Shown: piece after piece, positions 9,175-35,970 of the stretch | How positions within the stretch are numbered: position 1 is the stretch's first letter | Layout of the letters: every line of letters begins with the position of its first letter | NCBI GenBank assembly: GCA_003220335.1 | Contig: QHSB01000238.1 | Coordinates: forward strand, 1 to 35,970 | Reading direction: 5' to 3' | DNA from: Candidatus Rokuibacteriota bacterium | GTDB lineage: Bacteria; Methylomirabilota; Methylomirabilia; Rokubacteriales; CSP1-6 | DNA: 35,970 bases | Notes under the pieces: model-generated | What the model was told of the DNA's origin: nothing | Database searches by the model: none | What the model saw: only the letters and a program-made list of their open reading frames with translations | Program-made: the position numbers and the translations under genes

Positions 9175-9489
9175 TCATCGCGATGCGGCTCGCAGCGCGC
9201 CGAGCACGGCCAGCGAGGGTGTCGCGCGACACGAGGCCAGCATGCGATCGATGGCCGCGCCCGTCGCCTCGGCGTCGTAGACGGTGGCGGCGCGACGGCC
9301 GTCCGCCACGCCGGACAAATAGATGAGGGCGCGCTCCTGCATCTCGGGCTGGAGCACGAGGAGCTCGCGGCAGGTGAACGCATCGAGCTCGGTCCGCTGC
9401 GGCAGCGGCTCGATGCCTCCGGCCGCCGGTGCAGCACCGAGCATCGCCAGCACCAATCCGCCAACAAGAGCCGACGTCGCGCGCATCAT
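9175..9489 (-). CDS. HdeA/HdeB-like periplasmic protein
   Basis: A 104-aa protein with signal peptide (ends APAAG) and a small helical mature domain with two cysteines, Cys40 in FTCRELL and Cys87 in MLASCR, spaced as in HdeA-family acid-stress chaperones, where they form a disulfide. ALIYLSGVADGRR matches the central helix of that family. It is the first gene of the minus-strand operon that continues through the Mla genes to 3309, 19 bp before the next start. No ribosome site precedes ATG 9489; it lies 8 nt after a -10-like TTGAAT, so the transcript may be leaderless. Confidence 0.8.
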   Translation of the reverse strand: MMRATSALVGGLVLAMLGAAPAAGGIEPLPQRTELDAFTCRELLVLQPEMQERALIYLSGVADGRRAATVYDAEATGAAIDRMLASCRATPSLAVLGALRAASR

Positions 9490-9497
9490 AGCGATGC

Positions 9498-9541
9498 ATT
9501 CAACCAGACTGCGGGCGGCGACCTGAATCGGACCTTGGTCT
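9498..9541 (-). promoter_or_regulatory. GGAC-N4-GTCC box and -10 for the hdeA-like/Mla operon
   Basis: Box at 9530-9541 (AATCGGAC CTTG GTCTCAT on plus). Read on the minus strand, TTGAAT (9503-9498) follows after 26 nt, and ATG 9489 comes 8 nt later with no Shine-Dalgarno sequence. Confidence 0.65.
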
Positions 9542-9616
9542 CATCACATGGTGAAGGCGCTTCGTTCGCCGATGAGCCGCTTGTCACTCCACCAGTTGCG
9601 GCGCGTTCGAGAAATT

Positions 9617-9659
9617 GGACCTTCGTCCGATGGTGAGCGCGAGGGTGCGGACCTAGGCT
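9617..9659 (+). promoter_or_regulatory. GGAC-N4-GTCC box and -10 for the solute-binding protein/cyclase operon
   Basis: Perfect box at 9617-9628 (AATTGGAC CTTC GTCCGATG). TAGGCT (9654-9659) follows after 25 nt and GTG 9666 after 6 more. It lies back-to-back with the box at 9530 for the divergent operon. Confidence 0.7.
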
Positions 9660-9665
9660 CACGTC

Positions 9666-10670
9666 GTGGCTGTGACATGCCCGCGCGAGCGTCCGGCGAT
9701 CTCACGGCGCGCGTTCGTCGGCGGCGCGCTTGCCGTCGCGTACGGACCACGCATGGCCGAAGGGCAACCGGCGGGGAAGCTGGCTGCCATCGGCTTCGTC
9801 TCGGAGCGCGTCCTGCCACCGCGCTATCTCGATGCGCTTCGGGAAGGTTTGGCCGAGCGCGGCTGGATCGAGGGACGCGGCTTCCGCATCGAGCCACGCT
9901 CCGCGGAGGGAGACCTCGAGCGGCTTTCCGGACTCGTCGTAGAACTCATCGGCCTCGGGGTGACGCTCATCGTCACGGGCATCGGGACTCCCGTGGCCCT
10001 CGCCGCCAAGCGGGCGACCGCGAAGATTCCGATCGTGTTCGTGACCGGCGGCGACCCCGTCGACTTCGGAATCGTCCCGAGCGCGGCGAAGCCCGGAGGC
10101 AACATCACCGGCTACGGCGGCGGGAGCTCGCTCATCCAGAAGCGGATTGCGCTGGTGCAGGAGACGAGCCCGCGCGTGAAGCGGATGGCCTTTCTCGTGA
10201 ACCTGACGAATCCGATCCATCCACGAATCCTCCGCGCGGCCGTGAGCGCCGGCGCGCCGCTGGGCATCACGCTGGAGGAGATCGGCGTGTTCGAGGCCGC
10301 GGAATTCGGCGACGCGTTCAAGCGCATTGCGGCCAAGCGACTCGACGCGCTCTTCGTCCCGGGGGACGCCATGTTCAGCCATCATCGGGCGCGGCTCGTG
10401 GCGTTGGCGGGGGCGGCCCGGCTGCCCGCCATGTATGGTGACCGGCTCTTCCCCGACGCCGGCGGCTTGATGTCCTTGTCGGTGGACCTCGTCGAGCTTT
10501 GCCGACGCGCCGCTGGCCACGTCGACAAGATCCTGCGAGGCACACGCGCCGGCGACCTGCCCGTCGAGGAAGCCGACCGGTTCGAGCTGGTGATCAACCT
10601 CACCGCGGCCCAGACTCTCGGCCTGACGATTCCGGCCGCGCTTCGGCAGCGAGCAGAGACCGTGTCATGA
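9666..10670 (+). CDS. ABC transporter substrate-binding protein (ABC_sub_bind family)
   Basis: A 334-aa protein with a twin-arginine-type signal (ISRRAFVGGALAVA). The body matches the ABC_sub_bind family often annotated as tryptophan/tyrosine-binding: GFVSERVLPPRYLDALREGL near the start, IPIVFVTGGDPVDFGIV in the middle and DLPVEEADRFELVINL near the C-terminus. GTG 9666 is used because it follows the -10-like TAGGCT by 6 nt and places the Tat signal near the N-terminus. No permease or ATPase gene is adjacent. The next gene overlaps it by 4 bp (ATGA), so it may serve as a periplasmic sensor for the downstream cyclase rather than a transporter part. Confidence 0.88.
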   Translation: MAVTCPRERPAISRRAFVGGALAVAYGPRMAEGQPAGKLAAIGFVSERVLPPRYLDALREGLAERGWIEGRGFRIEPRSAEGDLERLSGLVVELIGLGVTLIVTGIGTPVALAAKRATAKIPIVFVTGGDPVDFGIVPSAAKPGGNITGYGGGSSLIQKRIALVQETSPRVKRMAFLVNLTNPIHPRILRAAVSAGAPLGITLEEIGVFEAAEFGDAFKRIAAKRLDALFVPGDAMFSHHRARLVALAGAARLPAMYGDRLFPDAGGLMSLSVDLVELCRRAAGHVDKILRGTRAGDLPVEEADRFELVINLTAAQTLGLTIPAALRQRAETVS

Positions 10671-15242: not shown

Positions 15243-15286
15243 GGACCAACGTCCGATGATGAGAACGCCCATGCGCAGTCTACGCT
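15243..15286 (+). promoter_or_regulatory. GGAC-N4-GTCC box and -10 for the polytopic membrane protein
   Basis: Perfect box at 15243-15254 (GGTAGGAC CAAC GTCCGATG). TACGCT (15281-15286) follows after 26 nt. No comparable hexamer lies at the right distance on the minus side, so it is assigned to the plus-strand gene. Confidence 0.6.
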
Positions 15287-15312: not shown

Positions 15313-16557
15313 GTGACAAACACGTCCCGGTCCGAGTCCGCGCTCCTGGCTGGTCTACGCGCGCCGGCGTCGGCTGAGCCATCGCTCCCGGATCCCTACG
15401 ACTTCTCGGTCGTCCTGGGTGGACCGCTCTACCAGATCATTCGACGAGCTCACCTGTCCGGCGATGCGCTGCAGCTCTGGCGTCGCCGGATTCTCTTCAT
15501 CACGCTCATCGCCTGGTTGCCGTTGCTGATCCTGTCGGTGCTCGGTGGGCGAGCGTGGGGCAACGCCGTCGCCGTGCCATTTCTCCTGGACATCGAAGTG
15601 CACGTACGGTGGCTGGTGACCCTGCCGCTGCTCATCGTGGCCGAGCTCGTCGTGCACCAGCGGATGCTCCCGCTGGTGCGGCAATTCCTAGAGCGTGGGC
15701 TGATTCCCGACGTCTCCCGCGCGAAGTTCGACGCGGCTGTAACCGCGGCGCAGCGGCTGCGGAACTCGGCGGTGGCGGAGGGACTGCTCATCGTGCTCGT
15801 GTACGTCGTGGTGCTCTTCATCTGGCCTCACTACGGCGTGCTGAATGTTGCGACGTGGTACGCCGTGCCTGGGGGCGGCGGGCGCCAGCTCTCGCCGGCC
15901 GGCTGGTGGTTCGTCTACGTGAGCCTGCCGCTGTTCCAGTTCATCCTCGTCCGGTGGTATTTCCGAATGTTCCTCTGGATACGCTTTCTCTGGCAGGTGG
16001 CGCGGTGCACGCTCACACTTGTGCCCACACACCCGGATCGCGTCGCCGGCCTCGGGTTCCTGTCGAGCAGCGTGGTCGCATTCGCGCCCCTTCTGGCGGC
16101 TCACGGGACATTACTCGCCGGGGCGATCGCCAATCGGATCTTCTTCGAGGGGGCGACGCTGTTGCAGTTCAAGGTGGAGATCATCGTCGTCGTCGCGTTC
16201 CTCCTGCTCGTCGTGCTCGGGCCGCTCCTGCTGTTCACCCCACACCTGGCGGCGGCGCGGCGGGTCGGCCTGCGCGAGTACGGCACGCTCGCCCAGCGCT
16301 ACGTGCGGGAGTTCGACGACAAGTGGCTCCGTGGCCACGCCTCCGCGGGCGAGCCGCTTCTCGGGAGCGCGGACATCCAATCCCTGGCCGATCTCGGCAA
16401 CAGCTTCGAGCTCGTCCGCAGCATGCGGATGGCACCCATCACCAGGGATGCGATCCTCCAGCTCGCGGTGATCACCCTGCTGCCGGTCGCTCCGCTCCTT
16501 CTCACGATGATCTCGCTGGAGGAGCTTCTCAAGCGGCTCGTACAGGTCCTGCTCTGA
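15313..16557 (+). CDS. Polytopic membrane protein of unknown function
   Basis: A 414-aa protein with about seven membrane segments (approximate residues 55-75, 90-115, 155-175, 200-222, 255-275, 285-305 and 375-400) and a cytosolic N-terminus of about 50 residues. Motifs include FIWPHYGVLN, LVPTHPDRVAGLGFL and REFDDKWLRG. I recall similar hypothetical proteins in soil proteobacteria but know no function. GTG 15313 is preceded by a GAGGTGA ribosome site. It is transcribed alone from the box promoter at 15243. Confidence 0.75.
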   Translation: MTNTSRSESALLAGLRAPASAEPSLPDPYDFSVVLGGPLYQIIRRAHLSGDALQLWRRRILFITLIAWLPLLILSVLGGRAWGNAVAVPFLLDIEVHVRWLVTLPLLIVAELVVHQRMLPLVRQFLERGLIPDVSRAKFDAAVTAAQRLRNSAVAEGLLIVLVYVVVLFIWPHYGVLNVATWYAVPGGGGRQLSPAGWWFVYVSLPLFQFILVRWYFRMFLWIRFLWQVARCTLTLVPTHPDRVAGLGFLSSSVVAFAPLLAAHGTLLAGAIANRIFFEGATLLQFKVEIIVVVAFLLLVVLGPLLLFTPHLAAARRVGLREYGTLAQRYVREFDDKWLRGHASAGEPLLGSADIQSLADLGNSFELVRSMRMAPITRDAILQLAVITLLPVAPLLLTMISLEELLKRLVQVLL

Positions 16558-16756: not shown

Positions 16757-16799
16757 AGACATAGGTCCTATCGATCGCGCCGGCAGCCTGCGGCACCCT
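16757..16799 (+). promoter_or_regulatory. GGAC-N4-GTCC box and -10 for the HpnN-like gene
   Basis: Box at 16757-16768 (TGAGAC ATAG GTCCTATC). CACCCT (16794-16799) follows after 25 nt and GTG 16807 after 7 more, without a Shine-Dalgarno sequence. The rest of the 16558-16806 gap holds no gene that I can support. Confidence 0.6.
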
Positions 16800-16806: not shown

Positions 16807-19504
16807 GTGAAGACAGACGTTAGGGACCTTCCGCCGACCGGGGCGTCGCTGTCCCGAGTGGTCCGCGTGGTCACCATTCGACCGAGCCTCACCATCATCG
16901 TGGGTCTGGTGCTCGCGCTCGCCGCGCTCGGCTTCGCCGGCCACAGGCTGACGTTTCAGAGCTCCTCGGTACAGCTGCTGCCGCAGCATCATCTCTACGT
17001 CCAGCGCTTCAAGGAGCATCTGCGCGACTTCGGCGATCTCAACGACATCGTCATCGCGATCGAGGCGCCGAGTGTGCCGCGGGCTCAGGCGTATGCCGAC
17101 CGGCTTGCCACCGAGATCAAGCGTCTGCCGAGCGCAGGCAGAGTCGCGTATCGGGTCGACCCGGACCTCTTCGCGGGCCAGGCACTGCTCTATCTCTCGA
17201 CGGAGCAGCTCGCCGATCTCGCCGACACGATCAGGCTGTACCATCGCTTCGTCGAGCAGTACGCCGCCCGCCCGACCCTCGCCGGCCTCTTCGAGGGCAT
17301 CAGCGCGGAAATCGCGCGGCGCTTCGCCCTCGGATTCGTCGACCTCGGCCTTGGTGACGGCCCCGCAGCCAAGTTCGATCCCGGGTTCGTGGACACGCTG
17401 CTCGGTGCCGTCGCCGACGGCCTCGACAGACGCGGCGAGGACGTCTCGCCGTGGACGCGTGTGTTCACGTCGGCCGCCGATCGTGCACGCTCCGGCTATT
17501 TCTTCTCCGCCGACGATCGGCTGCTGTTCCTTCTCGTCGAGCCGCAGCGGGACGTCGCCAGCTTCACGGACAACAAGGAGTTCATCGCGGCGATTCGCCA
17601 GATCATCCGGAGCCTGCGCGAAACGTATCCCGATGTCGCCGCCGGCGCGACCGGCGATTGCGGTGACGGTGGGCCTCCTCTTTCTCGTGATCCGGCGCAC
17701 CGTCGAGCCGCTCTTGATGCTGGGCGTGCTCCTGCTGAGCCTGGCCTGGTCCTTCGGCGTCATCACCGCCGTCGTGGGCCACCTCAGCGTCTTCTCGGTG
17801 ATGTTCATGTCACTCCTCGTCGGCCTCGGCATCGACTACGGGATCTACCTCTTTCTGCGTTACGAGGAAGAGCTCAGGCTCGGCCGGACACCGCGGCACG
17901 CCCTCATGACGACTGCGGGCCACTCCGGGCCCGGGATTCTCTTCGGAGCCCTCACCGCCGCCGGCACGTTCGGCGTGTTGATGCTGGCAGAGTTCCGGGG
18001 CATCCAGGAATTCGGCTTCATCGCCGCCACCGCCATCGTCATGGCATTCGTCGCCATGATCACGGTCTTTCCGGCTCTGCTGGTCATGACGCGGCGGCGG
18101 CTGCCCGTCGTGCCGGCGACAGCGCCGATCGGCCAGAACGACGCGCCGTGGCCGCGCCGGCTGATGCGCCACCGGCTGGTCATCCTCGTCGTGGCCATGG
18201 CGTTGACGGTCGGCGCACTGCTCGCGCTGCCGGCCATCCGCTTCGACTACAACCGGCTCAATCTTCAGGCGCCGGGCATGGAGTCGGTCATCTGGGAGCG
18301 AAAGATCATGGAGTCGCGCCGCTCGGGATTCGCCGCGCTCGCCACCGCGGATTCGCTGGCGGAGCTGAGGGCGAAGCAGGGCGCCTTCGCCGCCCTGCCT
18401 GGCGTGTCCGAGGTGGTGAGCGTGCTCAAGCTCGTTCCGGCCGATCAGGAGGCGAAGATCGGCGTCGTGCACGCGTTCGCCCGTCTCGTGGTGGCCTTCC
18501 ACGTCGGTGACCAATCCGCGGTCGATCGGGCGGCGATTCAGCGCGCGCTGCAGATGCTCCGACGTCGCCTCGAGATCGCCGCGGCAGAGGCGGAAGGTCA
18601 TACGGCCGAGACAACGCTGCGCTCGGCTCACGAGCGGACCGTCGCACTCCTCGCTCGCCTGGCGAGCGGCGACGCCCAGCTGGCGTCTCGACTCGCGCAC
18701 GTGCAGCTCCTCCTTCGCGACGACTTCATCGCCACGCTGCGGAAATTGCAGGACAACCTCGCGCCGCGTCCCGTCACGGTGTCGGAGCTGCCGCCGGAGC
18801 TGACGCGGAAGTTCATCGGCGCCAGCGGGCGTCTGCTCATGCTGATCTACCCGGGCATCGATACCTGGGAGCGCGAGGGAGCAAGGGAGTTCGTGCGGCA
18901 GCTGCGCTCGGTCGACGCCGCCGTCACCGGCTCTCCGGTGATCAGCTACGAGGCGAGTCGAATGGTCGAGGCGGCGTATCTTCAGGGCACCTTCTACGCC
19001 GCCGGGGTCGTGGCGCTGCTGGCCGCGGTCATGCTGCGACGCTCCCGGGACACGCTGCTGGCCCTGGTCCCGCTCGGGCTGGCGACGCTGTGGACCATCG
19101 GGCTCATGCACCTTCTGGGCCTGTCCTTCAATCTCGCCAACGTCTGGGGGCTGCCGCTCGTCGTCGGAACTTCGGCCGAGTACGGCATCAATGTCATGCT
19201 GCGCTACCGCGAGCAGACCGCCGCCGGGCGCACGCCATTCCCGCGCAGCGCGATCCTGGCGGTCGCCCTCAACGGCCTGACGACCATGACCGGCTTCGGA
19301 AGCCTGATGGTGGCCCGCCATCGAGGGATCTTCGGCCTGGGCCTCTTTCTGACGATCGGAGCGGCGGCCGCCCTGGCCGCGTCGCTCGTCCTCCTCCCGC
19401 TGCTCCTCATGCTCTTCGACCGTCCCGCGGCCGGTCCCGCGCGGGAACAGGACGGAAAGGAGTCATCATGTCATCGCGCCGTGCGTTCGTCGTCTGTGGG
19501 CTGA
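16807..19504 (+). pseudogene. HpnN-like RND/MMPL transporter, frameshifted with internal deletion
   Basis: The N-terminal part reads from GTG 16807: one membrane helix, then a periplasmic domain with SSVQLLPQHHLYVQRFKEHL, up to AAGATGD near 17655. The next frame resumes with AIAVTVGLLFLVIRRTVEP and continues through the MMPL helices (GLGIDYGIYLFLRY), the second periplasmic domain and the final helices to 19504. Between the pieces about 20-30 residues expected in this family are missing, together with a frame change. HpnN-type proteins carry hopanoids or other lipids to the outer membrane. The following HpnM-like gene begins inside its 3' end. It is either broken or a misassembly; the rest of the sequence looks under selection. 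Confidence 0.8.
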
Positions 19505-22096: not shown

Positions 22097-24720
22097 TCAC
22101 CCCGCGCGCTCCAGCACGCGGATCCGGCCGGTGCTGCCATCGAGCTCGACGCGATCCCCGTCCCGGAGGCGTCGCGTGGCACCGTGCACGCTCACGACGG
22201 CAGGCAGCCCGTATTCGCGGGCGAGAATCGCGGCGTGGGAGAGCAGACCGCCCATCTCGGCGATGAATCCTCGGACGAGCGGAAAGATCGGCGTGAGGGT
22301 CGGCTCGATCGCCGGAATCACGACGATCTCGCCGGACAGATGTCCGATCGTCTCCGCCGATCGCAACACGCGGACGCGCCCGGTCACGATCCCCGAGCTC
22401 ACGCCGTAACCGAGCAGCTCGTTGTCACCCGGCGCGTCCGCCGCGCGCTCGACACCGCCCGCGGTCCCGTCGTCGCTGACGATGTCCGGCGCCTGCAGCT
22501 GTGCATCGCTCTCGCGCTGTCGCCGCCGTTCGGCCGCCAGGAGGCGCCAGGCGCCGTCACGCTCGACGAGCACCCGCGGCATCTCGTCGAACGTCAGGAA
22601 GAACACGTCCGTGGGATCCGCCAACACGTTATCTCGGCTCGCGCGGCGCCCGATCTCCAGCGCCACGCGCCGCAGATGCGCCACCATCATGGTCATGACG
22701 TGGCGGCATTCGTCGCGCAGCGCCAACAAGCGGTGGAGCGCGCTGCACATGATACGAAACAGCGTCCACTGCGCCACGAACGCAAGGGAGCCACGGCCCT
22801 CGTGAAGCACACAGCGCACGTCGGCCATCGCGACGTGCCGGACGCGGGATCGCTCGGCGGCGTGGCGCGCGGCATCCTGCGTGGCACCTGCGCGGACGTG
22901 GAGCTGGACGAGGCGCAACACCGGCCCCGGATCGTCGGCGAATCTGGCCGACATGACATCGGACTCGTAGGGACCACGATGGCCGAATTCCCGCAGGAAG
23001 GCGCGCAGGCCCGCGAGCACGGCGGTGCCGCCGAGGGCCGCCTCGTACCCGGCAAGGGCGTCCTCGTCGAGGTCGCCGGTAAAGTACGCGCGCGCCCGGC
23101 GGTCTTGCACGGCGAGAGCGGCGAGATCCATGAGGCGATAGGTCATCCGCACGTTGGGCAGCGTACCGAGTCCGGTCATGAGCCGCTTCAGCAGGCCGTC
23201 GACATCCGTCGGCATCCACGCCGTGAGCAGGGCCTCCAGCGTCATGTAAGCGCGGGACTGTGCGGAGACCACCTCGTGCAGACGCCCGAGTATGCTCTCG
23301 TGCATGAGCGTTGCAAAAAACGCGTCGGCATGTGCGCTCAGCGCTCGGTCGTCGAGAGCCTCGAGCGAGCGGTCGTCGAGCGCGGCCGCCTGGCGCCGCA
23401 TGCCGCGGAAGAGTCGGTGGCCTCGATAGGGTGTCCCCAAAAAGGTCGCGAGCATCTCGCGCGCGAGTCGGGCGCGACCACTCCTCGGGATCTCGGGGCG
23501 CGAGGCCGGCGCCGGCGGTCTCGGTTCCACGGGGCTCGCGCCCCCGAAGAGCCGGCCGACGATGGCCGGGTCGCCGCCGCGCTCGATCGTCATCTGCTGC
23601 ATCAGCGAAAGGTTCAGATACGGGCGGCCGTGGATCACGCAGACGAGCCTGGAATCCGGCGCCACCGAATACCCGTGCGTGGCATGATATGTGCGGAACA
23701 TTCGGTTCAGCGCCAGCGTGAGGTATGAGAGCGCCAGCGGGCTGGGCAGCTCGGGAAAGACCTCTTTGAGGTTGGCCCGCGTCCACAGCGTCGGGGCATG
23801 CGCCGATGCGTGCAGGGCCTCTGTCAGCGTGGTGATCGGCCTCGCCTGCACGGCCCACAACGCGTCTCCGTCGCAGACCCACTCGAGGTCAACCGGCGTC
23901 CCGAGCGTCCGTTCGACGGCCTTCGCGACACTGGCAAGCTCCCGCACCTGCGAGTCGTTCAGCACCGGCCGGCCTCGTCGCGTGTCGTCGAGCGGCAGAG
24001 CAGCCGAGCGACCATCGCGCCAGACGGTCATCTCCTCTTGCCGTCCCGGGCGCCGGTGGGCGCCGGCAGGGCCATCGCCATTCAGCGAGACGCGATACTC
24101 CTCGGGCGTCATCTTCCCTGAAACCAGCGCCTCGGCGGTTCCCCATCCCGCCTCGATCACGACGGTTGTCCGGTCCTTCGTCAAGGGATCGGCAGAGAAG
24201 GCGACGCCGGAGCAGACCGCGGCCACGTAACGCTGGACGACGACCGCCATCGCCGCCGAGGCGTGAGGGATGCCGAGGCGCTCGCGATACGTCCACGCCG
24301 TCTCCGTCCACACGGAAGCCCAGCACGTCTTGATGGCCGCGATGATGGCGCGCACCGCACCGAGAGAACGTCGCCGTCCCGCCCAAGGGTCACACGGCCG
24401 ATCCCCTGCCGAAGCGCTGCCTCCGCATCCGCGGAAAGCGGCGTTGCCTCGACCTCACATCTGATCTGTTCGAGGATCTTGCGTCGAACGTCGGCGTCGC
24501 CCGCGGTCGCGACGAGCTCGGTCAGGCGGGGCCCGAAACCGGATACGTCGAGCCAGTGCCGGTAGAAGTCCGTTGTTAGACATACCGCGCGCGGCACGGA
24601 CACGCCGATCCGCTTCAGCATCGCCAGGCCCACCGCCTTGCCTCCGCACAACGTGGGGTCGGTCGCGTCGACGATGTCGACCAGCCAGCGGTGCGTCCGG
24701 GGCGCGGTGGTAGCGATCAC
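22097..24720 (-). pseudogene. PEP-synthase/rifampicin phosphotransferase-like enzyme, internally deleted and frameshifted
   Basis: From GTG 24720 the N-terminal ATP-grasp part (LCGGKAVGLAMLKRIGVSVP) reads to GRDGDVLSVR near 24356. The next frame then continues AIIAAIKTCWASVWTE, QRYVAAVCSGVAFSADP, the PEP/pyruvate-binding region and the swivelling His domain (GGLLSHAAILAREYGLPAVV, catalytic His) to 22097. At the junction a tandem GTGCG GTGCG is seen. The conserved stretch with the ATP-binding Arg and Ser-Phe-Ala-Gly motif (about 25-35 residues) is missing. The family transfers phosphate from ATP to pyruvate, rifampicin or other acceptors. The real acceptor is unknown. Confidence 0.8.
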
Positions 24721-24726: not shown

Positions 24727-24769
24727 ATGCTAGCGGCCATGCGCTTGAGCCTCTATGAGACGAAGGTCC
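24727..24769 (-). promoter_or_regulatory. GGAC-N4-GTCC box and -10 for the PEP-synthase-like gene
   Basis: Box at 24758-24769 (minus strand GGAC CTTC GTCT). On the minus strand TAGCAT (24732-24727) follows after 25 nt and GTG 24720 after 6 more. The box also ends one base before ATG 24771 of the divergent kinase gene. Confidence 0.65.
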
Positions 24770-24770: not shown

Positions 24771-25613
24771 ATGGAGCCTCGGCTCCTCGCGGCGGTAGAA
24801 GAGACGCGTATGGCGCTCGCCGGCCACGATGCATCGAGCAATCCGAAGCAGGCCGCCATCGCCGCGATCGCCCGGGCGCAGATCGATCTGGAGCGCGCGG
24901 TCGGGGAAATCGACATGCTGCCCGCGGTCGACGTCCATTCGGTCGCCCTCGCCGCCCATGCCCTGAACAATTTCCTGACCGTGTCGGGCGGTGTCGTCGA
25001 TCTCCTGCTCCCGCTGCTGCGTCACCATCCGGATCGCCAGGTGACGGTGTGGCTCGAAGGCCTCGCGCACGCGACCGATCTCATGAGCCACACGGTAAGC
25101 CAGTTGATGAACAACTCCGTGGGCGTCGAGATGACGTTGCAGCTCGAAGACGTCGACTTGCCGCGGCTGGTCGAGCGCGCGTGCGGGTACTACAGGCGGG
25201 CCGCCGAGATCAAGAGCATCGAGCTGAGGTTCAGCGCCCACGGCGATGTCCGGCCCGTCCGAACGGACCGCGTGGTCGTCGCCGCCGTCCTCGACAACCT
25301 CCTGTCGAACGCCGTGAAGTACTCGCCCCGCGACCGCCGGATCTGGGTCGAGTTGCGCGGCGAGCGCGATGGCGCTGTGTGCAGCGTGCGGGACGAAGGT
25401 CCGGGGCTGACCAGCGACGAGCAGGTACGCCTCTTCCGACCGGGCGTACGTCTCGGGACGACGCCGTCCGGCGGCGAGCCCTCCAGCGGCTACGGCCTCG
25501 CCGTCGCCATGAGCTTTGTCGACCGTCTCGGCGGCGAGCTCACATGCGCGAGCACTCCCGGCCGGGGCACCACCTTCTCGTTCTGGCTGCCGATGGTTCG
25601 GCCGCGCCCCTGA
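24771..25613 (+). CDS. Soluble histidine kinase without recognised sensor domain
   Basis: A 280-aa protein. A helical N-terminus leads to a dimerisation region with His66 in AAHALNNFLTVSGG, then an ATPase domain with N-box LDNLLSNAVKYSP, G1 box RDEGPGL and G2 box SSGYGLAVAMSF. No membrane segment or PAS domain is seen. ATG 24771 follows GAAGG by 4 nt but would put the regulatory box inside the ribosome-binding region; ATG 24810 is an alternative. A degraded copy of part of this gene is fused to a copy of the mlaA tail at 30270-30521. No receiver gene is adjacent. Confidence 0.85.
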   Translation: MEPRLLAAVEETRMALAGHDASSNPKQAAIAAIARAQIDLERAVGEIDMLPAVDVHSVALAAHALNNFLTVSGGVVDLLLPLLRHHPDRQVTVWLEGLAHATDLMSHTVSQLMNNSVGVEMTLQLEDVDLPRLVERACGYYRRAAEIKSIELRFSAHGDVRPVRTDRVVVAAVLDNLLSNAVKYSPRDRRIWVELRGERDGAVCSVRDEGPGLTSDEQVRLFRPGVRLGTTPSGGEPSSGYGLAVAMSFVDRLGGELTCASTPGRGTTFSFWLPMVRPRP

Positions 25614-25666: not shown

Positions 25667-25709
25667 GGACCAGGGTCCGATGGAGAGAACCCTGTCGACC
25701 CGCTACCCT
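25667..25709 (+). promoter_or_regulatory. GGAC-N4-GTCC box and -10 for the mlaA gene
   Basis: Perfect box at 25667-25678 (CATGGGAC CAGG GTCCGATG). TACCCT (25704-25709) follows after 25 nt. The predicted transcript begins about 50 nt before ATG 25765, so this one has a leader with a normal AGGAG ribosome site. Confidence 0.65.
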
Positions 25710-25768: not shown

Positions 25769-26733
25769 GCGCAAAGGCCTCTACGAATGTCGATCGGCTC
25801 GGGCTTCACCGCCTCGCCACCGTCGCCTGCTTCGGCGCGCTCGCGCTCGGGTTGACGGCCTGCGGCACGTTCTCGGGCACAGCCCGTGTCGACTCCGCCC
25901 TCGACGTCGGCCCGCCGCGCACCATCGAAGCCGCCCTCCCGAGCGACGCCGACCTCGCGTCGGTGCCCTCCGCCGCCGCTCCCGAGCGCGACACGACGCT
26001 CGTCGCCGCCGCGCCCGCCGACGCGGCGACCGACGCCGAGCCGCAGGGCGCAGAGCCGGTCGCCGACATCTCGGCGCCCGGCGAAGGCATGGCGCAGGCG
26101 CGCGAGACGGCCACGGACGTGGAGCCCGAAGCGTACGATCCGTGGGAGCGCTGGAACACGAAGGCGTTCGATTTCAACCGGCGGGTGGACAATTACGTCC
26201 TCAAGCCGATCGCCAAGGGCTACAACTTCGTCGTCCCCGACGAGATCCAGACCATGATCGGGAACGGCTTCGACAACATCTCGTTCGTGCCGCGGTTCAT
26301 CAACAACCTGCTCCAGGGCAAGATCTTGGGCGCCGGCCGCGAGGTGACGCGCTTTCTCATCAACAGCACGGCGGGCGTCGGGGGTCTCTTCGATCCGGCC
26401 AAGGACGTGTTCGGCATTCTGAAGAGCCGCAAGGACTTCGGACAGACGCTGTGTGTCTACGGCGTGCGACCCGGCCGGTACGTCGTCGTGCCGTTCCTGG
26501 AGCCGCTGACGATCCGCGACGGCGTCGGGAAGGCGATCGACAGTGCGATGGACCCGCTCTCCTACGTCCTGCCGCTCATCTGGGACCGCCTGGGCATGAA
26601 GGTGGGCGACATCGTCAACGAGCGCTCGCTCAACCTGGACCTGTTCCAGGGCTTCGAAGAGAGCACGCTGGACATGTACAGCGCCGTTCGTCACGCGTAC
26701 CTGCAGCGCCGCGAACGTCTCTGCCGCGAATAA
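25765..26733 (+). CDS. mlaA: MlaA (VacJ) outer-membrane lipoprotein
   Basis: A 322-aa lipoprotein with lipobox LTAC, a low-complexity Ala/Asp/Pro linker of about 85 residues that is longer than usual, then the MlaA domain: DPWERWNTKAFDFNRRVD, FINNLLQGK, FLINSTAGVGGLFDPAKD and GRYVVVPFLEP. MlaA extracts mislocalised phospholipid from the outer leaflet and passes it to MlaC. It is encoded apart from the mlaFED genes, as is common. ATG 25765 has AGGAG upstream. Its last 35 codons are duplicated at 30417-30521. Confidence 0.95.
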   Translation: MSAKASTNVDRLGLHRLATVACFGALALGLTACGTFSGTARVDSALDVGPPRTIEAALPSDADLASVPSAAAPERDTTLVAAAPADAATDAEPQGAEPVADISAPGEGMAQARETATDVEPEAYDPWERWNTKAFDFNRRVDNYVLKPIAKGYNFVVPDEIQTMIGNGFDNISFVPRFINNLLQGKILGAGREVTRFLINSTAGVGGLFDPAKDVFGILKSRKDFGQTLCVYGVRPGRYVVVPFLEPLTIRDGVGKAIDSAMDPLSYVLPLIWDRLGMKVGDIVNERSLNLDLFQGFEESTLDMYSAVRHAYLQRRERLCRE

Positions 26734-26819
26734 CGGCCTCGGGAGAGGGCCGGCGTGGCGCGGTGGGCGCCGACTGCGACTGCGACGAGCGTCTGCACAA
26801 ACGATCTACCGTTTTTCAT
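26691..26819 (-). pseudogene. Truncated copy of the 5' end of the glycine-rich exported protein gene
   Basis: ATG 26819 opens MKNGRSFVQTLVAVAV, closely matching MKTGRSFARTLAAVAA of the gene at 31778-32311. Similarity ends after about 18 codons; the frame then runs antisense into the mlaA tail and stops at 26691. The AGGAGG-type ribosome site and the upstream region with its box are conserved as well, so a promoter plus signal-peptide fragment was copied and the body lost. Confidence 0.6.
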
Positions 26820-27225: not shown

Positions 27226-27897
27226 TCAGCCGGTGGGGATCGTGAGCACCGGCGGGGCGTCCTTGCTGCCCGGCTCGACGAGCGCGAAGACGAACATGAT
27301 GAAGCTGAACATCCGCTTGGACGAGACGTCGCGATCGTCGATCCAGAACCAAAAGTCGCGATAGGACACCGCCACGAACGCGTCGGCCGGCCGGTCCCTG
27401 GAGCTCTTGATCTGGATCAGCGGCCTGACGGGCCCGGCCGGGCCTTCCTCGGCGGCCGCTGTCGGGCTCACGCGGCGCTCCGCGATGTGCTCCTCGGGCA
27501 CGGTGATGAACGACGACAGGTCGACCAGGATCTCCAGGGCGGACCGGGTCAGGATCGCGATCTCCTTGTCGCTCGCCACCGACCCGTACCCGACCCGGAA
27601 CTCTCGGGCACCGGGGTCGAGGCCGAGGAGCTGCCGGATCTCGCGGAGGTCGGCCTCGATGGCCGGGTCCACCTTCTGGCGGAACGTCATCAGGCCGGCT
27701 TCGTCGCTCTCGAGCCGGCGCACGCGCATCCCGATTCCGCCGGAGAGCTGGACCCGGCGCATCCGCTCGAGGAGCGCGTAGTCGGCGACCGCGGCGCTGT
27801 AGTCGAAACGGTCGCGGATCCCGGTGCCCGGCCCGAGGACGCACCCGGACGTCAGGCCCACCAGGGCCAGGATGAGGAGCGCGGAGTGCAGCCTCAT
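27226..27897 (-). CDS. Lipoprotein, shortened paralogue of the 374-aa lipoprotein at 32498
   Basis: A 223-aa lipoprotein with lipobox LTSGC. The N-terminal part RDRFDYSAAVAD matches [12 protein letters not shown] of the 32498 protein. It then jumps straight to LERMRRVQLSGGIGMRV, which matches [17 protein letters not shown] some 150 residues further on in the paralogue. The rest aligns to the end, including FITVPEEHI, YRDFWFWIDDRD and a C-terminal PPVLTIP. It therefore looks like an in-frame internal-deletion version that remains open. The family has no function known to me. It precedes the 84-aa gene on the same strand. Confidence 0.75.
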   Translation of the reverse strand: MRLHSALLILALVGLTSGCVLGPGTGIRDRFDYSAAVADYALLERMRRVQLSGGIGMRVRRLESDEAGLMTFRQKVDPAIEADLREIRQLLGLDPGAREFRVGYGSVASDKEIAILTRSALEILVDLSSFITVPEEHIAERRVSPTAAAEEGPAGPVRPLIQIKSSRDRPADAFVAVSYRDFWFWIDDRDVSSKRMFSFIMFVFALVEPGSKDAPPVLTIPTG

Positions 27898-27937
27898 GAT
27901 CGGCTCACGGCTTGGTGATCCTGTCGCTCGATGCCGC

Positions 27938-27980
27938 AGTGTGGATCGAGCCATGCGCGGATACCACACGACCTAGGTCC
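27938..27980 (-). promoter_or_regulatory. GGAC-N4-GTCC box and -10 for the shortened lipoprotein
   Basis: Box at 27969-27980 (CGAC CTAG GTCC on plus). On the minus strand CACACT (27943-27938) follows after 25 nt. It is the left member of a back-to-back pair of boxes, start-to-start distance 24 bp. Confidence 0.55.
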
Positions 27981-27992: not shown

Positions 27993-28036
27993 GGACCTAG
28001 GTCCGGTAACGGCGCGCGACCGCCTGGTGGTCCACT
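27993..28036 (+). promoter_or_regulatory. GGAC-N4-GTCC box and -10 for the mosaic lipoprotein remnant
   Basis: Perfect box at 27993-28004 (TATGGGAC CTAG GTCCGG). TCCACT (28031-28036) follows after 26 nt and ATG 28044 after 7 more. The stretch 28005-28043 closely resembles 33651-33688 before the MscS-family gene. Confidence 0.6.
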
Positions 28037-29535: not shown

Positions 29536-29940
29536 GTGGCCCGGGACATCGACGTCGCGACCAAAGATCCGCCCACCGTCTGCATCGTCGAAAATGACGC
29601 GTCGTTGCGTCGTGGCCTGGTGCGACTCGTTCGCGGCCATCGCTTGACGGTCGAGGCGTTTGCCTGGCCCGGTCAGGTCCTTCGGAGGCTACAAGCCGGA
29701 CAGCTTCACTGCGCGGTCCTGGTGCTCGACATACACCTCGGCAAGATGAGCGGCTTCGATCTCCACGATCGACTGACCCAAATGGGATTGTCCATTCCCA
29801 CGATCTTCATGACCGGCCGCGACGATACGACGAGCCGTGAACGTGTCCGTCGGCTCTGTGCGAAGGCGTATCTCGTCAAGCCATTTGAGGATGCCGCCTT
29901 GATCGGCGCGATCAGGATGGCGCTGAAGGAAACCCGATGA
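29536..29940 (+). CDS. Single-domain response regulator (FixJ-like receiver)
   Basis: A 134-aa receiver with acidic pocket Glu19-Asn20-Asp21, phospho-acceptor Asp65 (VLVLDIHLG), Thr93 (FMTG) and Lys115 (LVKPF). No output domain. It is an intact gene inside a region of remnants and stands near the collapsed kinase at 28314-28907, which may have been its partner. The start is GTG 29536; no strong ribosome site is visible. A strong hairpin ending in TTCTTC lies about 70 bp downstream. Confidence 0.85.
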   Translation: MARDIDVATKDPPTVCIVENDASLRRGLVRLVRGHRLTVEAFAWPGQVLRRLQAGQLHCAVLVLDIHLGKMSGFDLHDRLTQMGLSIPTIFMTGRDDTTSRERVRRLCAKAYLVKPFEDAALIGAIRMALKETR

Positions 29941-30269: not shown

Positions 30270-30521
30270 GAGTCGACCTGTCGCGTCTGGTCGAGCGCGC
30301 GTGCGCGTACTATCGACCAGCGGCCGAGGACAAGGGCATCGAGCTGAGCTTCAGCGCCCGAGGCGATGTGCGGCCCGTCCGAACCGACCGCGTTGTCGTC
30401 CCGGCCGTCTTCGACACTCAACCTCGACCTGTTCCATGGCTTCGAGGAGAGCACGCTGGACATGTATAGCTCCGTCCGTCACGCCTACCTGCAGCGCCGC
30501 GAACGTCTCTGCCGTGAATAG
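30270..30521 (+). pseudogene. Fusion remnant: piece of histidine kinase joined to mlaA tail
   Basis: 30270-30416 aligns without gaps to 25150-25296 in the kinase gene (VDLSRLVERACAYYRPAAED; HGDVRPVRTDRVVV appears as RGDVRPVRTDRVVV). 30417-30521 aligns without gaps to 26629-26733, the mlaA end (FEESTLDMYSSVRHAYLQRR), including the stop. Relative to the intact locus, 1332 bp are missing at the junction, where CAACCT occurs at both source ends. The two parts are in different frames, so no functional product is expected. The 167 bp from here to 30692 hold nothing I can identify. Confidence 0.8.
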
Positions 30522-30692
30522 CGGCTGGCTGGCTCCGGCCGGCCGCTCATTCTCCTTGTAGCTTCGGCGCCCGCGCGCCCGCGCCACGTCGCCTCACGGG
30601 CGCCCGGCCACCATCCCGCCACCATCCCACCGGCCGCGACGGTGAGGACGGCGACCATCACGCCGATCGCGAGCCGCTCAATGCCACTGCGA

Positions 30693-31470: not shown

Positions 31471-31514
31471 ACGGTACCGGCCGCTCCGCCGGGTTGGCTA
31501 TTGGACGTTCGCCC
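31471..31514 (-). promoter_or_regulatory. GGAC-N4-GTCC box and -10 for the DUF3313 gene
   Basis: Box at 31503-31514 (TATTGGAC GTTC GCCCTATG). On the minus strand TACCGT (31476-31471) follows after 26 nt. The leader to ATG 31382 is about 80 nt. Confidence 0.6.
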
Positions 31515-31777: not shown

Positions 31778-32311
31778 CTATTGAGTGGTGCGCGGCGCCG
31801 CGGCAGGCGGCCCTTCGGCATTCCTCCGCATCCTCGCCGCCTGCTGTCGTGCTTCGGGCGTGAATTTCACGTTGAGTCCCGCGTGAGCCATCGAGAAGTT
31901 CAGCCCCTGATTCGTGGCCGTCCACACCATGCTGACGTAGTTCTGGTTCTGCATCGCGGCCGCACCCGCGCCCCCACCGAGCGTGGCGCCCGCAATGGCC
32001 GCCATGAACATCCCCTCGAAGTCTTCGACGTTCTTCAGGTTGAACACGTCGCCGTTCGCGAATACCTTCGCCACGCCCACGTCGACGATGCTGAACGCCG
32101 TCACCGTGAACGGATATTTCGCCCCACGGTACTCGAGGACGCCGTTCCCCCAGGCGTACCCCAGCCCGGCGGCAACGGACATGCTCTCGATCGAAACCTT
32201 CCCCGTGGTCTCTTTTCCCGTGGTCCCCTGTGCCGCCCACGCCGTGCCGCCGGCGAGGGCCAGGGCGGCAACGGCGGCGAGCGTTCTCGCAAACGACCTA
32301 CCGGTTTTCAT
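31778..32311 (-). CDS. Exported glycine-rich protein, unknown function
   Basis: A 177-aa protein with signal peptide (ends AWAAQ). The mature domain has GLGYAWGNGVLEYRGAKYPF, FSIVDVGVAKVFANG, a glycine stretch GATLGGGAGAAA and QNQNYVSMVWTATNQGLNFS. The pattern of short glycine-rich strands recalls small periplasmic proteins of the EipA/SYLF type, but I would not assign it. ATG 32311 has AAGGAGG 7 nt upstream. A copy of its promoter and first codons lies at 26800-26910. Confidence 0.75.
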   Translation of the reverse strand: MKTGRSFARTLAAVAALALAGGTAWAAQGTTGKETTGKVSIESMSVAAGLGYAWGNGVLEYRGAKYPFTVTAFSIVDVGVAKVFANGDVFNLKNVEDFEGMFMAAIAGATLGGGAGAAAMQNQNYVSMVWTATNQGLNFSMAHAGLNVKFTPEARQQAARMRRNAEGPPAAAPRTTQ

Positions 32312-32357: not shown

Positions 32358-32400
32358 ACGATGCCGTCAACGGGCGCTCGCGCCAATCGGACGTTCGTCC
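32358..32400 (-). promoter_or_regulatory. GGAC-N4-GTCC box and -10 for the glycine-rich exported protein
   Basis: Perfect box at 32389-32400 (CAATCGGAC GTTC GTCCTAG). On the minus strand CATCGT (32363-32358) follows after 25 nt. Confidence 0.6.
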
Positions 32401-32448: not shown

Positions 32449-32491
32449 AGACCAGAGTCCGATAGCGAGCGTGCTGTCGTCAGGCTAGGCT
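32449..32491 (+). promoter_or_regulatory. GGAC-N4-GTCC box and -10 for the 374-aa lipoprotein
   Basis: Box at 32449-32460 (TATGAGAC CAGA GTCCGATA). TAGGCT (32486-32491) follows after 25 nt and GTG 32498 after 6 more. It is divergent from the box at 32389. Confidence 0.65.
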
Positions 32492-32497: not shown

Positions 32498-33622
32498 GTG
32501 ATGCGACCGCCGGCCACCGGCGCCTGCGGATCGAAGATGAAGATGAGGAAGACCAGCGCGTTGTGGGGTTTCCTCGCCGCCGGCCTCGCCGGGTGCGCAA
32601 GCTACGGTTCGGTGACCCTCGACCGCGACCGACTGGACTACACGTCGGCGGTGGCCAACTCCTGGAAGCAGCAGACACTCCTCAACATCGTCAAGCTTCG
32701 CTACGCCGATACCCCGATCTTCGTGGACGTCGGGCAGATCGTGGCCGGCTACCAGTGGCAGGTCGGTGCGAACGCGACCGGCACGATCTTTCCAGGCGGC
32801 AGTCCGGGCAATCTCCCCAGCCCGAACTTCTTCAGCGTCGGCGCGGCGGGGACCTTCACGGATCGTCCGACGATCACCTACACGCCCCTGACCGGTTCGG
32901 CGTTCATCCGCACGCTCATGACGCCGATCCCACCCGTGCGGCTGATGGAGCTGATCGACACCGGCTACGCGGCGGATGTGCTGTTCCTGGTCGCCGTGCA
33001 GCAGGCCAACGGTGTGTCGAACCGGCGGGCGGGCGGGCGCGCGCAGGCCGCGGACCCGGACTTCGTGCGGTTTCTCACAGCCCTGCGGCGGATCCAGGAC
33101 TCCGGGGCCATCGGATTCCGCGTCGAGCCGGACAAGGAGTCGGGCAAGCGCGAGCGGCTCGTCATGTTCTTCACCAGGGAAGAGATCGAGCCGGACGTCC
33201 AACAGGAGCGACAGGCGCTCAGGAGGATCCTCCATCTCAGCCCTGACCGGATGGACTTCCAGGTCATCTACGGGGCGGACACCGACCGGGACGATGTCGT
33301 CGCAATCCAGACGCGCTCTGCGATGCAGATCCTCGGTGTGATGTCGTCGTTCATCAGCATTCCGGAGGAGCACGTGCGCGACGGTCGCGCCTTCCCCGCA
33401 CCGACGCCGGCGGCGGGCGTGCCGCCCGTCATGGCCATCGCGAGCGGGCCCAGCAGGCCGGACGGCGCCTTCGCGGCCGTGCAGTATCGCGACCTGTGGT
33501 TCTGGGTCGACGACCGCGATCTGCGGTCCAAGGGCGTGTTCACGTTCCTGCTGATCCTCATGACGCTGGCCGACACCGGCGAAAAGCCCCCGCCGCCGAT
33601 CCTCACGATTCCCGCCCAGTGA
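32498..33622 (+). CDS. 374-aa lipoprotein of unknown function
   Basis: Read from GTG 32498, the predicted 5' end; [20 protein letters not shown] at 32537 gives the signal peptide with lipobox LAGC. The mature N-terminal half has [20 protein letters not shown] and a variable Gly/Pro region. The C-terminal half has [47 protein letters not shown] and a final [10 protein letters not shown]. No named family known to me. A shortened paralogue lies at 27226-27897. ATG 32537 may be the functional start if a leader is used. Confidence 0.8.
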
Positions 33623-33638
33623 CGCGCCCGGCGGCGTG

Positions 33639-33681
33639 GGACTTACGTCCAATAGGGCGCGCGGCGGCCCGGTGATCCACT
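33639..33681 (+). promoter_or_regulatory. GGAC-N4-GTCC box and -10 for the MscS-family channel
   Basis: Perfect box at 33639-33650 (GTGGGAC TTAC GTCCAATAG). TCCACT (33676-33681) follows after 25 nt and ATG 33689 after 7 more, with no Shine-Dalgarno sequence. Confidence 0.65.
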
Positions 33682-33688
33682 GCACCTG

Positions 33689-35970
33689 ATGCGAAGATCG
33701 CGCGGTGTCATCGCGGCGTACGTGGTCCTCTGTCTGATGGCGACTGCGCCGGACTGCGTCGGCGCGCCGGCCTCCCCGGCCCCCGCCACCGTTCTGCCGG
33801 CAGAGGCTCCGCAGAAGACGCCGCCGGCGCCGGGGACGCCGCTCAAGGGGGCGGCGCCGCAGGCGCCGGTGTCGATTCCCGTGCCAGAGATCGTCGCGAA
33901 GGCCCAAGAGGTGACGAAGCTCCTGCGTGAGCTCGACGCGCTGGCCGCGCCGGTGCCCGAGATCGTGGCGATCCAGACTCGATTGCCCGACATCAGCACG
34001 AAACTCGGGCCCGAATTGAAATCCACGATCGAGATCCTCGAGCAAGGGCCGCCGATCGGGATCCAGGAACGCTTGACGCAGTCCTGGCAAGCGAGCAGCT
34101 CGGAGCTGGCCGGCTGGCTCGATATCATCACGAAGCGCGCGACCCAGCTCGAGCGCGAGCTGGACCGCCTGGCGTCACTACGCGCCACGTGGGCGCAAAC
34201 GCGCATCGACGCGCAGGCATCGCGTGCCCCCACCCCTGTCGTGCAAAACGTGGAAACCGTCCTCGCCGACATCGAGGCGGCACGCGTACGATTGCAGGCA
34301 CAGCGCGCCGTCACGCTCGTCTTGCAGGACCAGGTGGCCGAGCAGGCCAAGCGCTGCCAGCACGCCCTGGCAGAGATCACCCGGCTCCGCCAAGGATCGC
34401 TGGCGCTGACGTTGACTCGCAGCTCGCCGCCGATCTGGAGTCACGAGCTGCGCAGAGCGGATTTCGAGCGGATGCCCGCGCGCCTTGGGGAAGAGCTCCT
34501 CGCCAGCGTGACGCTGTTGAGGCAATTCGCCACGGAGCACGCCATCCGCCTGCTCCTGCATGGTCTGCTCTTCATCGGGCTGATCCTCCTGACGCGTGGC
34601 GCCCGATCGTGGGCACACGGCGCCGCGGCCCGCGAGGGAGCGCCGCCGGCTGCCGCGGTGTTCGATCGCCCGTACGCCGCGGCCGCCGCGGCCGCCCTGG
34701 TGTCCGTCCTCTGGATCTATCCAGTCCGGCCTCGCACGATCGGCGACGTCGGCGGGATCCTGTTGCTCGTGCCGCTGCTGCGCATCTTCCGACTGCTGAT
34801 CGCCCGTGCGATGGCTCCCGCGCTCTACGCATTCGCCGGCCTGATCCTCGTCGATCGCGTCCGAGCCCAGGTGGTCGTCACTCCCCTGGGCGATCAGGTC
34901 ATCCTGCTGGTGGAGATGCTGGCTGCCATCGTCCTCCTGGCGTGGCTCCTCGGTTCCCGGCAGCTCCATCGTGCCCTCCGCGCAGACGGCATGACGCCGC
35001 AACGGCTGCACGCCCATCACACCGTCGCCGGTTTCTGTCTCCTCGTCTGCGCCGCATCGTTCGGAGCGGCCGCCTATGGCAGCGTGCGCTTGGCGCGAAT
35101 GCTCGGGTCCGGCTTGCTCGTCGACGTGTTCCTGGCGATTGCCGCCTATGCCGCGGTCAAGGTGTTGGACGGTCTGCTCGCCTTTGCCTTCCGGGCGTGG
35201 CCATTGTGCCGGCTCGGAATGGCGGCGCGGCATCGCGATCTCCTGCAGCGGCGCGCCCACCGCACGCTCGTCACGATCATGGTGGGCACGTGGGCGTTGG
35301 CCGTGCTGACCCACCGTGGTCTCATCGATGTTGCCGCCACGGTCGGACGGGCAGCCCTGGCCGTCGAAGTACGGCGTGGCGGCATCGGCGTCTCGGTGGG
35401 CGACGTCCTGACCTTCTTCTTCACCGTGTGGCTGGCGTTCATGGTCTCCGCGTTCGTCCGATTCCTGCTCGAGGAGGACGTGTTCCCTCGGCTCAGGCTC
35501 GGGCGCGGCCTGTCGTACACGATCTCGAGCCTGCTGCACTACACGGTCCTCCTTCTCGGCTTCCTGCTGGCGATCGCCGCGCTCGGGGTGGATCTCAACA
35601 AGGTGACGATCCTGGCGGGGGCCTTCGGAGTGGGTCTCGGCTTCGGACTGCAGGGCATGGTGAACAACTTCGTCTCGGGACTGATCGTGCTCCTCGAGCG
35701 GCCCATGCAGGTGGGCGACGCGATCCAGATGGGAGACGTGGCGGGCGAAGTGCGCCGGATCGGCATCCGCTCGACCACGGTACAGACGGCGGAGGGCGCC
35801 GACGTCATCGTCCCCAATGCCAGCCTCGTGGCCGAGAAAGTGACCAACTGGACGCTCTCGCGCCACGTGCGACGCGTGGACGTGCCGGTCGGCGTGGCCT
35901 ACGGCACCCCGCCCGAAAAGGTGCTGGAGCTGTTGCGCGGCGTGGCGGCGGCACACCCACACGTGCTCGT
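33689..35970 (+). CDS. MscS-family mechanosensitive channel with long periplasmic domain (runs off the window)
   Basis: 760 codons are visible and the frame is open at the right edge. A signal peptide (about 1-25) is followed by a Pro/Ala-rich linker, a helical coiled-coil-like region (about 65-250) and several membrane helices. The MscS pore region is at about 634-680: VDLNKVTILAGAFGVGLGFG, QGMVNNFVSGLIVLLERP and VGDAIQMGDVAGEVRRIGIR. The start of the beta domain follows (ADVIVPNASLVAEKVTNWTL). The layout is like MscK/YbiO-type large channels, which release solutes on hypo-osmotic shock. The start ATG 33689 fits the box promoter spacing. Confidence 0.93.
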   Translation, partial: MRRSRGVIAAYVVLCLMATAPDCVGAPASPAPATVLPAEAPQKTPPAPGTPLKGAAPQAPVSIPVPEIVAKAQEVTKLLRELDALAAPVPEIVAIQTRLPDISTKLGPELKSTIEILEQGPPIGIQERLTQSWQASSSELAGWLDIITKRATQLERELDRLASLRATWAQTRIDAQASRAPTPVVQNVETVLADIEAARVRLQAQRAVTLVLQDQVAEQAKRCQHALAEITRLRQGSLALTLTRSSPPIWSHELRRADFERMPARLGEELLASVTLLRQFATEHAIRLLLHGLLFIGLILLTRGARSWAHGAAAREGAPPAAAVFDRPYAAAAAAALVSVLWIYPVRPRTIGDVGGILLLVPLLRIFRLLIARAMAPALYAFAGLILVDRVRAQVVVTPLGDQVILLVEMLAAIVLLAWLLGSRQLHRALRADGMTPQRLHAHHTVAGFCLLVCAASFGAAAYGSVRLARMLGSGLLVDVFLAIAAYAAVKVLDGLLAFAFRAWPLCRLGMAARHRDLLQRRAHRTLVTIMVGTWALAVLTHRGLIDVAATVGRAALAVEVRRGGIGVSVGDVLTFFFTVWLAFMVSAFVRFLLEEDVFPRLRLGRGLSYTISSLLHYTVLLLGFLLAIAALGVDLNKVTILAGAFGVGLGFGLQGMVNNFVSGLIVLLERPMQVGDAIQMGDVAGEVRRIGIRSTTVQTAEGADVIVPNASLVAEKVTNWTLSRHVRRVDVPVGVAYGTPPEKVLELLRGVAAAHPHVL

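Follow-up and report, generated by a model that had tools for sequence, protein, structure and literature searches.

The window examined here is the whole 35,970-nucleotide stretch of DNA that was analysed, contig C41 of a metagenome-assembled genome (MAG) of an uncultured soil bacterium, Candidatus Rokuibacteriota (5.5 Mb in 743 contigs, 94.9% complete, 7.1% contaminated). It carries genes for Mla-type, MlaA, MlaC, MscS, DUF3313, DUF4136, HdeA-family, PPDK and receiver-only proteins, some of which are not located directly behind a box, and a series of palindromic boxes with the core GGACSWWSGTCC, 16 of which face a gene. The full site is 20 bp long and reads TATCGGACC..GGTCCGATA in the island of boxes within the window, versus TATTGGACYWWRGTCCAATA in relatives. 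A hexamer resembling a −10 element (TANNNT) lies downstream from almost all the gene-facing boxes, and at seven promoters a potential start codon follows within 6–8 nt. The elements of these promoters, with genes delimited by crude gene calling, are listed below, with the offset counted from the box core, and with G002 denoting a genome of the same genus used for comparison.

9530..9541, minus strand: box AGACCAAGGTCC for the HdeA/HdeB-family gene at 9489, conserved in G002
9498..9503, minus strand: −10 hexamer TTGAAT, offset 27, 8 nt before the ATG at 9489, unchanged in G002
9175..9489, minus strand: HdeA/HdeB-family protein with a signal peptide, predicted to be leaderless (Pfam HdeA, 3.5e-7), with no Shine-Dalgarno (SD) sequence
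9617..9628, plus strand: box GGACCTTCGTCC for the gene at 9666
9654..9659, plus strand: −10 hexamer TAGGCT, offset 26, its TAG being an in-frame stop, so that there is no upstream start
9666..10670, plus strand: ABC substrate-binding protein (Pfam ABC_sub_bind), GTG 6 nt past the hexamer, predicted to be leaderless, same layout in G002 (locus L164)
16757..16768, plus strand: box AGACATAGGTCC for the gene at 16807
16794..16799, plus strand: −10 hexamer CACCCT, offset 26, 7 nt before the GTG at 16807, conserved in G002
16807..18510, plus strand: MMPL/RND-type membrane protein according to our own reading (no Pfam match on the frame), frame broken near 17654
24758..24769, minus strand: box for the PPDK-type gene at 24720, with a second box in G002 through a 16-bp insertion
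24727..24732, minus strand: −10 hexamer TAGCAT, offset 26, in-frame stop, 6 nt before the GTG at 24720
24181..24720, minus strand: start of a PEP-synthase/PPDK-like gene, predicted to be leaderless, frame broken near 24354 relative to G002 (PPDK_N on the continuing frame)
27993..28004, plus strand: box GGACCTAGGTCC, orthologue of the mscS-type promoter of G002
28031..28036, plus strand: −10 hexamer TCCACT, offset 27, 7 nt before the ATG at 28044 of a gene remnant
32449..32460, plus strand: box AGACCAGAGTCC for the gene at 32498
32486..32491, plus strand: −10 hexamer TAGGCT, offset 26, 6 nt before the GTG at 32498 (true start uncertain)
33639..33650, plus strand: box GGACTTACGTCC for the MscS-type gene at 33689
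33676..33681, plus strand: −10 hexamer TCCACT, offset 26, 7 nt before the ATG at 33689, conserved in G002
33689..35968, plus strand: mechanosensitive channel (MscS family, Pfam MS_channel_2nd), predicted to be leaderless

The boxes are far more frequent than expected, with 19 12-mers matching GGACSWWSGTCC at 11 or more of 12 positions in the window, versus 2.4 ± 1.5 in Markov sequence. The original prediction, made from these letters, was that the boxes and the hexamers are separated by a fixed distance, and this is borne out. If T1, A2 and T6 are taken as the fixed letters of TANNNT, at least two of these three letters are found at offset 26 or 27 for 15 of the 16 gene-facing boxes, and strict TANNNT for six, versus maxima of seven and one, respectively, for the other pairs of offsets. 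All 14 hexamers originally listed were recovered; the two boxes for which none had been listed are 26898 (CAACAT, two of the three letters) and 29393 (no hexamer). The 16 boxes are not all independent, because 27993+ and 33639+ are homologous copies, and 26898− and 32389− are located in repeated sequence, 26898 being a diverged repeat of the 32389..32400 promoter. The same geometry is found in relatives and in other phyla. Among 132 de-duplicated boxes (264 oriented sides) from other contigs of the same MAG and from related genomes, offset 26 has 48 instances of strict TANNNT and offset 27 has 22 (70 in total), versus about 0.7 per other offset. For 84 oriented sides from other phyla, at loci retrieved by similarity to the regulator described below, the corresponding numbers are 23 and 6, with a background of about 1. 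A search of 60 related genomes with the composite pattern of box and hexamer identified 22 places, versus 3 for the reversed control. Two other identities were considered for the box and rejected: an ECF sigma factor −35 element, because the box is a symmetric palindrome and some boxes are flanked by hexamers on both sides, and a mobile repeat, because the flanks and the spacer vary among boxes. The exact 20-mer TATTGGACCAAAGTCCAATA does not occur in viral contigs, and no description of the exact motif was found in the open-access literature, in which the one relevant match was DosR. At some single boxes (L145:3679, L145:15456, L147:2489 and L157:10877), TANNNT is found in both directions at an offset of 26 or 27, which suggests that one dimer site serves divergent promoters.

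Contig C91 of G002 is syntenic with the window and mostly 80–90% identical to it, making it possible to compare orthologous promoters. The hexamer is their most conserved part (1 substitution in 48 positions), followed by the box (10/96), the spacer (44/201) and the segment between hexamer and start codon (18/65). Only two indels, of 1 nt each, were found in the spacers (28044, which was not placed by the aligner, being set aside), and the hexamer and ATG of 28044 are kept in G002 according to a BLAST alignment. Loss of the spacing in orthologous promoters, named at the outset as the observation that would count against the prediction, was thus looked for in G002, in which the spacing is retained. 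A single promoter of G002, located before the MscS-type gene, corresponds to the two window boxes 27993+ and 33639+. The codon-position bias of substitutions after six of the starts is slight (0.175, 0.188 and 0.237, the misaligned 28044 included), a weak point that argues neither for nor against these start codons. At the G002 orthologue of the 24758 box (locus L163, 9410–9655 on C91), a 16-bp insertion creates a second, tandem box, and the proximal box keeps its distance.

The likely reader of the box, judging by its sequence associations, is a FixJ-type response regulator with the recognition helix EKT[VI]KxHRxR. Six GerE matches above the cut-off were found in the MAG, and only one of these proteins, encoded on contig C517, has an EKTVK helix (EKTVKVHRARVM). 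This protein combines a receiver (Response_reg, 2.5e-27) with a LuxR-type helix-turn-helix (HTH) domain (GerE, 6.9e-20), the architecture of the FixJ/NarL type, and its gene lies between a gene for a GAF-HisKA-HATPase kinase and a stand-alone receiver gene with a box. A close orthologue of this FixJ (more than 60% identity) is present in 11 of 36 genomes of the family, and composite matches were found in eight of these 11 genomes and in none of the other 25; G025 has a close orthologue without a composite match, and G005 has boxes with CAT flanks and a best regulator match no better than receiver level. A scan of public genomes with the C517 protein yielded 80 loci, and a box (a 20-mer scoring at least 23) is present at 35 of the 41 loci with the helix EKT.K.HR.R versus 2 of the 39 loci without it (Fisher 4e-14, uncorrected for relatedness). 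The box commonly lies 10–150 bp past fixJ, ahead of a receiver-only gene, and such fixJ-box-receiver loci come from records titled Deltaproteobacteria, Spirochaetota, Planctomycetota, Omnitrophota, Verrucomicrobia, Acidobacteria and Caballeronia; helix and box are also both present in Paraburkholderia phenoliruptrix BR3459a. FixJ relatives with ERTVKAHR helices (L063:3000 and L097) have other palindromes in their loci (TATTGAACCAAAGTACAATT and TATTGTACTAAAGTGCAATG), possibly reflecting an altered operator code.

The regulator is closest to StyR/FixJ, and its closest solved relatives are FixJ (5xso) and StyR (1yio). As in the FixLJ systems of Sinorhizobium and Bradyrhizobium, it has a receiver and a GerE domain and a HisKA kinase partner. 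Unlike the rhizobial FixJ helices (RTVEVHRANVM and RTIEVYRANVM), its helix is EKTVKVHRARVM and thus not of the FixJ type; the adjoining kinase, with the open reading frame (ORF) as read from the contig, has GAF, HisKA and HATPase domains and no PAS domain, and so does not correspond to a heme-PAS FixL, and no fixK or nifA target was seen here. FixLJ of Burkholderia dolosa was also checked as a possible studied case, but no binding site is given in the paper searched. The DosR/DevR regulon of Mycobacterium tuberculosis shares with the present system a NarL/FixJ-type regulator and a 20-bp palindrome with a GGACYWWRGTCC-type core (consensus TTSGGGACTWWAGTCCCSAA). In both cases, a GGAC..GTCC palindrome overlaps the −35 region, as predicted for the present system, at a fixed distance, which is here the distance to the −10 hexamer. 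The proximal DosR site overlaps −35 (PMC3029386, PMC5360333), the core DNA contacts of DosR are K179, K182 and N183 (PMC5999986), and TANNNT −10 elements and leaderless mRNAs are common in its host (PMC3898074). The present system differs from DosR in the helix of its regulator (EKTVKVHR), in the flanks of the box (TATT..AATA or TATC..GATA), in the usual presence of a single box, in a FixJ-like receiver encoded beside a GAF-type kinase, and in its envelope-gene targets; DosR is a much weaker match to the regulator, which does not qualify as a DosR orthologue paired with heme sensors of the DosS/DosT type. The LOV-HTH protein EL222 of Erythrobacter litoralis has the recognition helix EKTVKMHR, and the box core fits its 12-bp binding site RGNCYWWRGNCY (PMC10521638). 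EL222 is a light-driven one-component protein rather than a response regulator. Its helix and site, together with the DNA contacts of DosR, provide independent experimental support for the operator code. Leaderless genes with TANNNT about 12–14 nt before the start codon and no SD sequence have been described (PMC3160421, PMC12340547), including in Actinobacteria and Deinococcus-Thermus. The −10 element is likewise next to the ORF here, but in a minority class of genes and in combination with a candidate activator box at a fixed distance.

With −12 to −7 assigned to the hexamer, an offset of 26 puts the box centre at −43.5 and an offset of 27 puts it at −44.5, and the 20-mer extends to about −34. 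This position, which is also that reported for the proximal DosR sites (PMC3029386, PMC5360333), supports the original proposal of an activator site centred near −44 and overlapping the −35 region, a dimeric site at a fixed distance; judged by position, activation by polymerase contact, as at a class II activator promoter, is the most likely mode of action. According to the proposed mechanism, a cognate sensor kinase would, on receipt of its presumed signal, phosphorylate a FixJ-type response regulator (receiver and LuxR-type HTH), and the phosphorylated dimer would bind the 20-bp palindrome (predicted FixJ-binding box, TATTGGACCAAGGTCCAATA) centred about 43.5–44.5 bp upstream from the predicted start point, over −35. 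The bound dimer would recruit an RNA polymerase of the sigma70 type to a −10 element (TANNNT) lacking a good −35, which would make the 26–27 nt spacing obligatory. At several targets, the short distance between the −10 element and the gene would place the start codon at, or within 1–2 nt of, +1, giving rise to a leaderless mRNA; these targets would be using a minority mode of translation found throughout the genus rather than a component of the switch. Taken as a whole, with box, spacing, regulator, regulon and leaderless layout included, the FixJ-type operator/activator explanation is considered highly probable.

The seven starts originally listed do lie 6–8 nt past the hexamer (7 of 16 promoters with an ATG or GTG in this interval, versus 1.2 expected), and no SD 4-mer is present at −5 to −18 of any of the seven. 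The TAG of the hexamer is an in-frame stop at 9666, 24720 and 32498, so no start is possible upstream. The prediction of leaderless transcripts is supported for about five of the seven genes, with a layout conserved in the same-genus genome: it is well supported for 9666, 24720, 9489 and 33689, which have no better start, and moderately so for 16807. The layout at 28044 is the same, but this sequence resembles a truncated duplicate of the 5' end of the 33689 gene, and 32498 is uncertain, as ATG codons 39–45 nt downstream are possible starts for its lipoprotein signal. The prediction does not extend to the regulon: most box promoters of relatives have leaders with SD sequences, with a short-leader minority (e.g., L164, L094, L100 and L057), and leaderlessness is therefore not a property of the regulon. 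The sequence data point instead to a genus-level minority mode that is not a feature of the switch. Counts of TANNNT at positions −12 to −14 relative to candidate starts were 16 in 337 kb of the MAG, 21 versus 6.5 expected in all of its sequence examined, and 23 versus 8.9 in G001/G002; no such peak was seen at the loci of other phyla (39 versus 34). The view that leaderless mRNA is unusual for this kind of bacterium is not supported, given this genome-wide enrichment in the genus and the reported occurrence of leaderless genes in many phyla, with an average of 15.8% for the deltaproteobacteria detected and 13.3% for Acidobacteria (PMC3160421). No report linking Rokubacteria with leaderless genes was found in the open-access literature searched. 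In Deltaproteobacteria and Omnitrophota (L094, L100 and L057), receiver-only genes have an ATG 6–8 nt past the hexamer, so leaderless layouts also exist outside Rokubacteria.

Several observations weigh against the FixJ-type explanation. The only EKT-type FixJ of the MAG is encoded on C517 rather than on the island contig, and the box beside it has AATT flanks, whereas the island boxes have GAT flanks; six EKT-type loci have no box nearby, the relatedness of the loci means that the Fisher value overstates their independence, and some window hexamers are weak (CACCCT, TCCACT, CACACT). The cognate FixJ of the island may be missing from the fragmented assembly. In G002, two further EKT-type FixJ paralogues (helix KIHRGR) flank the island, in which the boxes have TATCGGACC..GGTCCGATA in place of TATTGGACC..GGTCCAATA, and the difference in helix between paralogues may explain the difference in flanks. 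The absence of the C517 FixJ from the island contig, together with the existence of other HTH proteins with EKTVK helices, such as EL222, would also suit a reader from outside the FixJ family, such as a different LuxR-type or a LOV-HTH protein, but this is improbable given the close linkage of the box to fixJ across many phyla, the covariation of helix and box, and the presence of an EKTVK helix in just one of the six GerE proteins of the MAG. A chance origin of the spacing, through post hoc selection of short GC-rich hexamers, might be suspected given the loose original definition (TANNNT or a variant), but is refuted by the sharp peak of strict TANNNT at independent boxes, both in the outside sample and in other phyla, and its probability is negligible.

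The same geometry bears on how the box acts. Palindromic sites can serve repressors as operators, and engineered EL222 has been used as a repressor in Escherichia coli (PMC10521638), but the fixed 26–27 nt spacing and the lack of a −35 consensus suit activation, the box lies upstream from −34 without covering the −10 element, and several boxes have hexamers at equal distances on both sides. There is thus little chance of a repressor binding at the box, or of an activator contacting the polymerase from a site unrelated to the −35 overlap. It is rather unlikely that the boxes and spacing are real and none of the transcripts is leaderless, with transcription starting elsewhere or the true start codons located downstream with an SD sequence. 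The leaders with SD sequences at most box promoters of relatives, the better fit of later ATG codons to the signal peptide of 32498, and the 25667 promoter, at which the nearby ATG is not the start, are consistent with this possibility. The in-frame TAG within the hexamers of 9666 and 24720 argues against it, as do the lack of a later start with an SD sequence at 9666, the only later SD start of 24720, which would truncate the conserved PPDK N-terminus, the coincidence of the 9489 and 33689 starts with signal peptides, the conservation of the layout in G002 and the genome-wide peak at −12 to −14.

The other boxes of the window, some of which precede leadered genes, and the two stand-alone receiver genes are as follows.

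255..266, minus strand: box for a gene cut off by the end of the contig, hexamer TTACAT at 223–228
266..688, minus strand: stand-alone receiver-domain protein (Pfam Response_reg) without a DNA-binding domain
3276..3287, minus strand: box for the ORF at 2823–3245, hexamer TTGAAT at 3244–3249
15243..15254, plus strand: box for the membrane protein at 15313, hexamer TACGCT at 15281–15286, leadered
25667..25678, plus strand: box for the MlaA lipoprotein, hexamer TACCCT at 25704–25709, leadered, ATG at 25765 with an SD sequence
27969..27980, minus strand: box for the lipoprotein-like ORF at 27226–27969, hexamer CACACT at 27938–27943
29536..29940, plus strand: second stand-alone receiver-domain protein, near box 29393
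31503..31514, minus strand: box for the DUF3313 lipoprotein, hexamer TACCGT at 31471–31476, leadered with an SD sequence
32389..32400, minus strand: box for the ORF at 31778–32311 (resembling, on visual inspection, the EipA-like targets of relatives), hexamer CATCGT at 32358–32363

At 17640–17670, about 65 nt found on C91 of G002 are absent and the frame of the MMPL/RND-type gene is broken, reflecting either a real pseudogene or an assembly collapse. The PPDK-like gene also changes frame, at 24350–24360, where about 79 nt of the G002 sequence are absent. Adjoining copies of pieces of a kinase gene (25152–25296, 85%) and of the mlaA gene (26629–26737, 92%) are found at 30272–30525, which is a decayed duplicate, and another partial copy of the PPDK-mlaA segment (80–88% identity) is present elsewhere in the same MAG (L125, contig C443 of G000).

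In relatives, the targets include MlaC, BON and peptidoglycan-binding, PRC-barrel, transglycosylase-associated, DksA/TraR-type and receiver-only proteins, together with EipA-like proteins below the Pfam cut-off. Together with the genes of the window, this suggests that the regulon serves mainly for envelope maintenance, with genes for Mla lipid transport, porins, MscS, EipA-like and BON/OmpA-type proteins, and also includes the stand-alone receiver proteins. It seems somewhat more probable than the contrary that a single FixJ subfamily, defined by the EKT[VI]KxHRxR helix, governs an envelope-maintenance regulon in about ten phyla through one operator and one 26–27 nt promoter geometry, often with the same receiver-only gene downstream, and that this geometry is combined with leaderless targets in some lineages. 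These findings provide computational evidence for leaderless genes in Rokubacteria and a testable operator code, in which the helix EKTxK.HR.R would read GGACYWWRGTCC. This code would cover a regulator of many uncultured phyla and of the cultured Paraburkholderia phenoliruptrix, Caballeronia terrestris and Desulforhabdus sp., the targets of which would be predictable from sequence.

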